The notes below the pieces were generated by a model. The model was not told the origin of the DNA, made no database searches, and saw only the letters and a list, made by a program, of their open reading frames with translations. 64,000 nt of DNA from Allolobophora icterica (Eukaryota > Annelida > Clitellata > Crassiclitellata > Lumbricidae). The stretch spans positions 34,978,285 through 35,042,284 of the forward strand of contig OY744611.1 in NCBI GenBank assembly GCA_963556255.1, in the 5' to 3' direction. Shown one piece after another: positions 9,801-12,800 of the stretch. The position numbers and the translations under genes are program-made. Each line of letters starts with the position of its first letter. Position 1 is the first letter of the stretch.

Positions 9801-12800
9801 ACCCGAGTTGAATGCCATATGAGGCGGGTTAGTGGGTAAAGATTCGTTGGCTGAGGCAATAAAACCCGTTTCGGAAACGTTTCTGGATAGGGGCGGAATA
9901 TGGCCGCTGTAGTTGAGAACCTTGATGTCCGTCGCGTATCGCCTTTCATTAGCTATCTCACTGTCTACATACCGCTTGTTAGTCAGGTGCCATGGTCCCG
10001 AGGGCGGCGTATCATTTTTCGTAGTGGCGTTGGTGATCAGCTGCGTCACTTGTTTCAAACTCGCGGCGTCACTATCAGATCCTGGAATTTCTGTTGGTAG
10101 CCCAGTCACTCTTTTACCACCCATGGCCAAATCACCGGTCATGGTACTGCCGGATTTGAGCACGCATGCGCTCCTAACGATAACATCTTCCTCGTTGGCA
10201 TACCTCTTAGCGGCGTCAGCTTTCTGGTCCGCATAGAGTCTAACGGAAGCTCCAATCTCAGCGTTTTTCACGTCAACGTATCGTTTATTTGTCACATGCA
10301 ACGGTTCTGTTGGTACTCTATCACTCTTTGTCATGTTGTCGGCGATCAGCTTCGATACTTGCGCCATACTCGTCGCGTCGCTTTCGGACGTTGCTGCGCC
10401 CGTAGGGAGCCCAGTAACTCTATTGCCACCCATGGTTAAATCACCCGTCATTGCATCACCAGTTTTAAGCACGCATGCGCTCCTAACGATAACATCTTGC
10501 TCGTTGGCGTACGTCTTAGCAGCTTCAGCTTTCTGGTCCGCATAGAGTCTAACTGAAGCTCCAATCTCAGCGTTTTTCGCGTCCACATACCGTTTGTTAG
10601 TCAAGTACTTTGGTCCCGCCGGCGCCGTATCATTATTCATAGTGGCGCTGCTGATCAGCTGCGTCACCTGTTTCAAACTCGCGGCGTCGCTATCGGATCC
10701 TGGAATTTCTGTTGGCAGCCCAGTCACTCTTTTGCCACCCATGGTCAAATCACCAGTCATAGAATCGCCGGTTTTGAGCACATGCCCGCCTCTTACGATA
10801 GCATGCTTCTCGTCCACATATCTTCTAGCGGTGGTGACCTTCTCATCCACGTACTGTCTGTAAGAAGCGTCGCGGGAATCTACATACCGCTTATTCACCA
10901 CATGCAACGACTCCGTGGGTACTCTATCGAGTTTTACTAGAGCGCCAGCGACCGCTGTTGACACTTGTTTCCAACTCGCTGCGTCGCTATCAGATCCTGA
11001 AATTTCTGTTGGGAGCCCAGTAACTCGGTGGCCACCCATAACTAAACTTCCAGTCATTACACCGCCGGATTTGAGCACGCACGCATTCCTGACGATAACG
11101 TCTTGCTCGTTAACATAACTTTTAACAATAAGGTCCTTGTCATCTGCATACCGCCTAACGGAATCTCTCAGCCCCGCATTCTTCTCGTCCGTGTACTGCC
11201 TGGCATCGATAAGCTTTTGGTCTGCATGATTTTCGGCTGCGGTCGCCTTCTGGTCCGCGTATCGTACCACTTGTGCCCAGCTCGCAGCGTCGCTTTCAGA
11301 CGCACCAGCGTCTGTGGGCAGCCCAGTAACTTTGTGACCACCCATTTTTAGAACACCAGACATCGTTCCACCGGTGATTTGTAAGTTGTCCTGATCTATG
11401 ATGTCTGCATAAGCCTTTGTCGCGGCGTCTGTTTCCATCGTGGGCGTTCCCACGTTTGTCAGTCGAAAACCTCCAGCCGACAGAATTCCCATCATGGTAT
11501 CACCCGCTTTGTGGACGAGCCCAGCGGCGCTTATCTGCCCCCCTCCCACCCCACCTCCACCGTCTCTTCCAAATTTATCAACCGGCATTTTTTTATATAC
11601 AAAAAGGTGACGGAAGTCTAACATAGGTCAAGCACGATGTCTTCAAAATTCTTTCCGGCAGCGAGCTCTCTTAGCACGGTCAGGCAGAGATGACCACATA
11701 CCACATCATCGGGCCCCTGTAGCTGGAACGTTTGAGTTCTTATAGGATTTTTTAAATATCTAGAAATTTCGAGAGGCGGATCCAGCCCATAACTGTCAAA
11801 ATAGACGGCTTTTGGTCCATCTATCCAATAGGCGACCCAGTGAGTACCATCACCAGAACCGGAATCCAGATTAACAACTCCAGACTCCTTCTCACGAGCC
11901 ACGGCGGGCAGACCATCTCGCATGAAAACACCGCGGAAATGCGGCAGCGCCCTGGCAACTTTCTCTATATCGAAGTTGCTAAGAGGTTTTAGTTTTTTTG
12001 TCCGATGTAGAGACCCGATCCTTTACACATTGGGCAACAACCACCACGAGTCTCACGCCCGAGATATAAACCAGTCCCGCGGACCTGGGCCTCGAGTTCG
12101 CGATTGTGACGCGCCGCCTCCGCCAGTGCAGCGTCGCTGGCCTGTTTGCTCTGCACAGCCTTTACTACCCCAGCGGTCCCACCAGCCACGGCACCCGCCG
12201 CGGATAACCCACCAAAAAGCAGCGGGAGGAGAGCCAGTAGTGGAAGAAATCCACCCATTTTAGTCATCTTTTTCAATTGCGTTTTGGTGAATCTCAGCTC
12301 CATGCCAACGCCTTCCGAAATCTTCTTCACGATTCGGGCGGCTTGAACTTTCGTAAGCGCGAGCTTATCGTCTCCACGAAGCTGGCCATGAGCGAGTCGG
12401 ATCGTGGCACCAGTGCCGGCGCGCGCAGCTTTAGCCAATGTTTGCTTTTGCCCTTCGGCCAGTGAAAGGCCGAACGCAACGTATTCAGTTTTCATTTTTG
12501 GAAAAAATATATCTAAAAGAGGACCTTGTATCTAAATGTGAAAAACCGATTTCTAGTAGACGACGTTGAATTTGCTGCCATCCGATTCAAAATTCAGGAG
12601 TCGGTCGCTGATCAGGACGGCATATGCTGTCGTATTATTTGGTACCCCCTCGTTAAAGTCCACCTTGATTTGTATGTCCTGTACAGAGGTTTTAAGTCGT
12701 TCAGATTGCCTGCGCACGTCCAGAACGAAGATCGGAAACAAATCTACAAATTCGATTGGTGTCGGTTGGCATGACGATTCACGCGCGTCTATGCCGCAAT

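Follow-up and report, generated by a model that had tools for sequence, protein, structure and literature searches.

The heptamer A AAA AAC is the gag-pro slippery site of MMTV. The adenain of adenoviruses is translated from its own start and binds a pVI-derived cofactor peptide after its synthesis. The titles of PDB entries 1nln and 1avp name an 11-residue cofactor. According to a passage of PMC8310308, known cases of frameshifting among eukaryotic DNA viruses are relatively few. For adintoviruses, PMC11071296 mentions potential Hexon-Adenain ('Hexain') fusions by -1 frameshifting in one sentence, the sites being predicted by KnotInFrame; penton slippery sites are also given there. In that excerpt the Hexon-Adenain fusions are given without data in the text, and its section on them makes no mention of a pX-Adenain fusion. 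The first-pass annotation of the present locus knew of no description, for this group, of a protease delivered as a fusion to a minor core protein. This is nearly right: no pX-protease frameshift was found in the excerpts of the polinton, maverick, adintovirus and adenain frameshifting literature, the founding adintovirus paper aside, but the Hexon-Adenain version had already been floated for adintoviruses (PMC11071296). The window, a stretch of 64,000 nucleotides from the genome of Allolobophora icterica, carries a Polinton that most probably makes a pX-protease fusion by programmed -1 ribosomal frameshifting; from the sequence comparisons below, we put the probability of this reading at roughly 0.88.

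The element has inverted repeats with AGT...ACT ends and is flanked on both sides by GTATA, a 5 bp target-site duplication; for vertebrate elements, an excerpt of PMC8097293 states a length of 6 bp. Its genes for PolB, an rve integrase, an A32-like ATPase, a DJR capsid protein and an adenain-like protease are the set of a Polinton/Maverick (Table 1). An NCBIfam search of six element proteins returned no match. The pX-like protein scored 17.1 bits (E 0.0053) against Adeno_PX PF05829, below the cut-off of 25, and its profile found just two weak matches in the PDB, to signal recognition particle protein at E about 0.05; 'pX-like' is used as a label only. The penton frame (14447-15240) is interrupted in the window. 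Among 37 other aligned copies, 28 have a single open penton frame of 263-264 aa and 2 an early stop, and 7 without the start anchor could not be judged. Because penton is broken here and open in 28 of the 37 others, the window copy is probably not fully functional despite its perfect terminal repeats. The fibre-like protein (9417-11624) contains four repeats of about 103 aa each, and it probably starts at the ATG near 11588, which follows TATATAAAAAA immediately and corresponds to the fibre start of a relative, L001, rather than at 11624 as the ORF finder has it. The start of ORF 15251-16363, with the sequence just before it, carries two copies of a 43-bp direct repeat (16349-16443), which are 98% alike and separated by 52 bp.

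Table 1. Features of the Polinton and of the pX-protease junction (window positions)
Feature	Position	Strand	Details
Polinton, full-length	7816-30264		virus-like mobile element of the Allolobophora icterica genome
Left terminal inverted repeat	7816-8164		349 bp; starts AGT; 100% complementary to 29916-30264
Right terminal inverted repeat	29916-30264		349 bp; ends ACT
Adenain-like protease coding region, -1 frame after slip	11618-11992	-	124 codons + stop
Protease-frame coding before any in-frame ATG	11924-11989	-	purifying selection in protease frame
7-bp inverted repeat, proposed stimulator, unsupported	11955-11979	-	shuffles and copy comparison
pX-like minor virion protein ORF	11989-12495	-	168 aa; hydrophobic segment and Cys-rich GSGLY tail
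Slippery heptamer A AAA AAC	11992-11998	-	in pX frame, immediately before TAA
pX frame/open protease frame overlap	11992-12022	-	changes among copies silent in pX, 6/6
Major capsid protein (double jelly-roll)	12553-13848	-	PF21738, E 4.2e-54
Packaging ATPase	16456-17289	-	Pox_A32, E 3.2e-8
Retrovirus-like integrase	17729-18796	+	rve, E 2.3e-10
Family B DNA polymerase	18783-22523	-	DNA_pol_B_2, E 1.5e-21

The minus strand reads ...GGA CAA AAA AAC TAA AAC CTC TTA GC... at the junction, with the pX stop TAA at 11991-11989. Direct reading thus confirmed the annotated end of pX, CAA AAA AAC TAA, and the -1 register of its heptamer. The protease frame is the -1 frame of pX and is open from 12022 to 11618; as had been annotated, its first ATG (11923) lies past the motifs LSNFDIEK and LPHFRGVF. 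The site has the form of a canonical eukaryotic -1 site, with an in-register X_XXY_YYZ heptamer ahead of the 0-frame stop. Heptamers of this form occur in frame 13 times per 4,007 codons of the ORFs of the element, and the chance of at least one in 11 random codons is 0.023. When the pX peptide is fixed and synonymous codons are random, the chance rises to 0.25. Therefore, the heptamer of one site is weak evidence by itself, and it becomes convincing because it is conserved across copies and relatives. Rfam gave no match over 11600-12520.

The annotated 7-bp stem begins 12 nt past the heptamer. Its complementarity (11979-11973 with 11961-11955) is present, but a role as stimulator is unsupported and the candidate was dropped, because folding is at chance level and the pairs are not conserved. 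The z scores against shuffles downstream of the heptamer are -0.48 (79 nt), -0.77 (49 nt) and +0.15 (97 nt). In 8 of 65 other unique copies, 2-3 of the 7 pairs are broken and uncompensated, with the 5' arm unchanged in every copy. Among simple stems, none was found about 5-9 nt downstream of the heptamer, where canonical sites have a stem or pseudoknot.

The host genome of 1.118 Gb holds very many Polinton relatives. A degenerate codon pattern for RGVFMRD matched it 847 times, against one match for the reversed control, although one of seven unusual places inspected (L102) is a chance match with no protease. By this count the family has expanded very greatly, and a single genome contains no fewer than two layouts of the protease, frameshift-type and own-ATG-type. 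Copies of the junction were taken in three sets. For the first, 40 of 906 candidates were scored, the window and 39 others, and 38 of the 39 were taken. For the second, 150 of 1565 candidates were scored and 30 further loci taken, of which L058, L059 and L060 duplicate L040, L039 and L032; the resulting 68 rows represent 65 unique copies with 51 distinct sequences. The third comprises 20 copies from the 150 scored places, chosen non-randomly and mostly for odd frame lengths, so that the unique copies number 38 + 27 + 20 = 85. Since the scoring covered 40 of 906 and 150 of 1565 candidates, the tallies are samples.

The heptamer and stop lie in the local register, meaning the frame of the pX tail, in 82 of the 85 other unique copies. 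All 38 near copies (97.8-99.6% identity) retain CAAAAAAACTAA, and pX stops at codon 169 in each of them; heptamer and stop are intact in all 30 further loci, whose pX identity to the window ranges from about 74 to 99%. The register is kept in 17 of the 20 odd-length copies; it is lost in L079 and L093 through longer A-runs and in L096 through a substitution. In 46 of the 50 loci from the second and third sets, the upstream pX frame that terminates at the heptamer stop is open for 144 codons or more. The four exceptions are L076 (an indel 11 codons upstream), L079, L083 (66 codons) and L093. An ATG in frame before LSNFD is missing from 49 of these 50 loci, including all 30 of the second set. 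The long protease frames of those 30 loci, which reach 293 aa, were considered as in-frame fusions and rejected, being just open -1 frames without ATG; L093 is an exception of 304 aa, where a longer A-run places pX and protease in one frame. As it is common to the copies, unlike the penton break, the pX-protease frame break is by this comparison a family trait and not decay.

The register, rather than the length of the A-run, also bears on whether RNA polymerase slippage instead of ribosomal slippage joins the frames. The site in the window has seven A; some relatives imply a longer run, and L079 and L093 do have one. However, P0005, P0008, P0009, P0010 and P0012 read F-KK-L, for which the codons permit at most six A, and the constant feature of the copies is the A AAA AAC register. 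We regard polymerase slippage as highly improbable.

The distribution of changes among the copies agrees with ribosomal frameshifting at this site. In the 38 near copies, third-base changes over 12495-11992 number 30 for the pX frame, 4 for the protease frame and 9 for the other, and over 11991-11621 they number 35 for the protease frame, 14 for pX and 8 for the other. Seven distinct changes fall in 11989-11924. Six of them leave the encoded protease unchanged (expected 0.25, p 0.0015), whereas one is silent in the pX frame and none in the third. With the 65 unique copies, the six changes within the overlap are all at pX third bases and none is silent in the protease frame. From the stop to the first ATG, 9 of 13 changes are silent in the protease frame, against 4/13 and 1/13 in the other frames. 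The constrained frame changes from pX to protease at the heptamer.

These changes speak as well to splicing, which would remove the pX stop and join the frames. Polintons replicate in the nucleus, and CCTCTTAG at 11986-11979 resembles an acceptor. On the other hand, the changes at 11984 and 11981 lie upstream of the acceptor AG and are silent in the protease frame, the sequence before the AG is variable (CCGCTGAG in other copies), and a conserved heptamer would be left unexplained. Splicing is the least probable of the alternatives weighed here.

The protease frame was modelled with AlphaFold2 from a 38-row alignment (mean pLDDT 90.3). The model has a helix at 16-23 and a strand at 29-34, a block with pLDDT >90, and Met34 is the codon at 11923; as modelled, this ATG comes after one helix and the greater part of one strand of the adenain fold. 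Foldseek matched the model to the adenovirus proteinase 1nln (E 1.5e-6), and its best structural match was the adenain of a Terrapene (turtle) adintovirus (E 3.1e-9, TM 0.78). The protease profile found adenain 1avp (E 1.2e-6) with His, acid, Gln and Cys aligned, and H61, D76, Q102 and C109 are invariant in alignment A2, as in adenain-like (vUlp1) cysteine proteases. With the gene set, these matches bear out the annotation of a Polinton with an adenain-like protease. Searches of viral_contigs found no relatives of the protease, the capsid protein or alignments A1 and A2, and a search of phages found none of the protease. Adenain consensus sites are [MIL]xGxG and [MIL]xGGx. In many pX relatives RHNR is followed by LxGxG, but the window has V there; such sites were left unused as evidence because matches in the proteins of the element are about as many as in shuffles.

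The protease could instead be translated independently, from ATG 11923 or a non-AUG codon, by way of an internal promoter, leaky scanning or reinitiation. The VFMRD methionine is invariant in alignment A3, so this ATG is always present, and a TATA-like TTTATATCTC lies inside pX at 12070-12061. Nine of 12 clade relatives (see below) with an extended protease frame have a database start Met upstream of the heptamer in the -1 frame and could in principle start there. However, the positions of the upstream Met vary among relatives and the KK site is constant, the protease frame is conserved over the stretch before 11923, which makes up core secondary structure in the model, and the loci other than one of 50 lack an ATG before LSNFD. 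In the window, AT-rich or TATA-like sequence stands just before the ATG of pX, fibre, capsid protein and PolB, with some other ORFs lacking it, and none precedes the first ATG or the heptamer of the protease. Independent translation is quite unlikely, if a little less so than the two alternatives above.

Proteases with their own ATG do exist in this genome. Among the seven places with unusual motif codons, L098-L101 start the protease by ATG after AT-rich or TATA-like sequence; L103 is a decayed pX-type copy retaining A AAA AAC TAA, and L104 is decayed with the heptamer lost. L001, a 6.1-kb contig of Polinton-like content that sits, probably through a binning error, in a record titled Balneolales bacterium MAG, has TATA and ATG ahead of its protease. 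L001 and L098-L101 share the protease family with the window, but in them TATA-like or AT-rich sequence with an ATG immediately precedes the protease, and the upstream stretch read contains no heptamer or pX tail.

Protein searches gave 111 protease and 64 pX matches, and a profile search 6728 protease relatives, of which the best 120 were listed. Of the 25 pX rows in alignment A1, the window among them, 18 have a KN ending and 7 do not; more distant pX matches, for example P0148-P0173, have other tails. In 13 of the first 111 protease matches, the database protein extends upstream of LSNFD with KK before it. A pX tail in KN-stop together with KKL in the -1 frame leaves only A AAA AAC or A AAA AAT possible. 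A AAA AAY with the adjoining stop is thus forced in the window and in the pX/protease pairs P0125/P0003 and P0136/P0013, which were paired by equal-sized contigs (1356; 15164) and whose junctions are deduced from the proteins. For P0018/P0132 and P0180, the weaker variants A AAA AAA or A AAA AAG are possible, and the pX relatives P0115, P0130 and P0133 continue beyond the A-run in another frame.

The protease extension re-read one base on matches pX tails in 10 of 13 relatives, where no more than 1 of 300 shuffles did equally well; the other three, P0006 (43/300), P0015 (23/300) and P0037 (36/300), failed. Among further extensions, P0180, P0186 and P0194 passed at 0/300 each, P0180 and P0194 with variant sites, and P0203 failed (279/300); P0018 (4 residues, uninformative) and P0202 (motif not found) could not be judged. 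None of the 12 own-ATG controls reached that level, and P0039 came closest with 8/200. Conserved across copies and relatives, the annotated canonical -1 heptamer joining the pX-like protein to the protease is supported.

A tree of 88 chosen rows and 123 columns, whose T rows are possibly contig-end truncations, contains a clade of 33 proteases (starred; 99/96); 7 fragmentary rows were left out of another tree. The clade comprises 13 KK-type proteases (window included), 14 that lack an upstream start, 2 of KK-V/ATGA type, 2 in-frame fusions and 2 with their own ATG (P0011, P0041). The tree has 15 KK rows, and as two of them, P0017 and P0186, lie outside the clade, the frameshift site may be older than it.

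Some relatives carry the fusion without any frame break. P0178 (GSGLFLSKKISPLSNFDIEN) has pX and protease cleanly in one frame, and P0209 likewise in decayed form. In P0193, a PF08398 domain, a parvovirus-type phospholipase domain, is fused in frame to the protease, and in P0177 it is fused to a pX-like hydrophobic segment. From these in-frame fusions, the protease appears to have been joined to minor virion-type proteins more than once.

The frameshift would operate as follows. Most ribosomes would terminate at TAA and give pX of 168 aa, and a minority would slip on A|AAA|AAC into the -1 frame and give a fusion of about 292 aa (168 + 124). Tandem slippage predicts the junction ...GLYIGQKN-LKPLSNFDIEK... 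and the tryptic junction peptide NLKPLSNFDIEK, with K-P uncut. The fusion would provide the N-terminus of a protease otherwise without a start codon, slippage would fix a low protease:pX ratio, and pX would carry the protease into the particle, where virion proteins would be matured. We infer slippage in cells, its rate and the pX-borne delivery to the particle. Delivery into virions as a pX fusion, which the annotation proposed by analogy with Gag-Pro, is plausible, because relatives have in-frame protease fusions to pX or to the PF08398 domain. At even odds, we propose further that this Polinton clade independently evolved a Gag-Pro-like system, with a frameshift-set protease dose delivered within a membrane-active minor core protein as a translational substitute for recruitment by the pVI peptide. 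If so, P0178 and P0193 would be alternative solutions.

If the frameshift reading is true, this would be a well-conserved case in an adenovirus-like lineage, governing a maturation protease as in retroviruses, and the N-termini of such proteases would be missed by gene callers. The junction is a compact, testable reporter. The frameshift also bears on whether Polintons make particles, because selection on the protease:pX ratio makes most sense with virions assembled.

Compared with retroviral Gag-Pro, the window has the same heptamer, the same pairing of virion protein with protease and a predicted low-ratio fusion. It differs in that the element is DNA, its protease is an adenain-like cysteine protease of unrelated fold, no conserved stimulatory structure was found, and virion incorporation is here an expectation. 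The adenovirus adenain shares the fold and the His/acid/Gln/Cys layout, but has a separate cofactor, whereas the window protease is predicted to be fused to the pX-like protein by translation. The nearest proposal is Hexain (PMC11071296), in which a hypothetical -1 frameshift would likewise attach Adenain to a virion protein, in a related group of viruses. Its partner is the major capsid protein, while that in the window is pX-like and comes with comparative evidence. The pX-protease frameshift is a better supported variant of the Hexon-Adenain idea.
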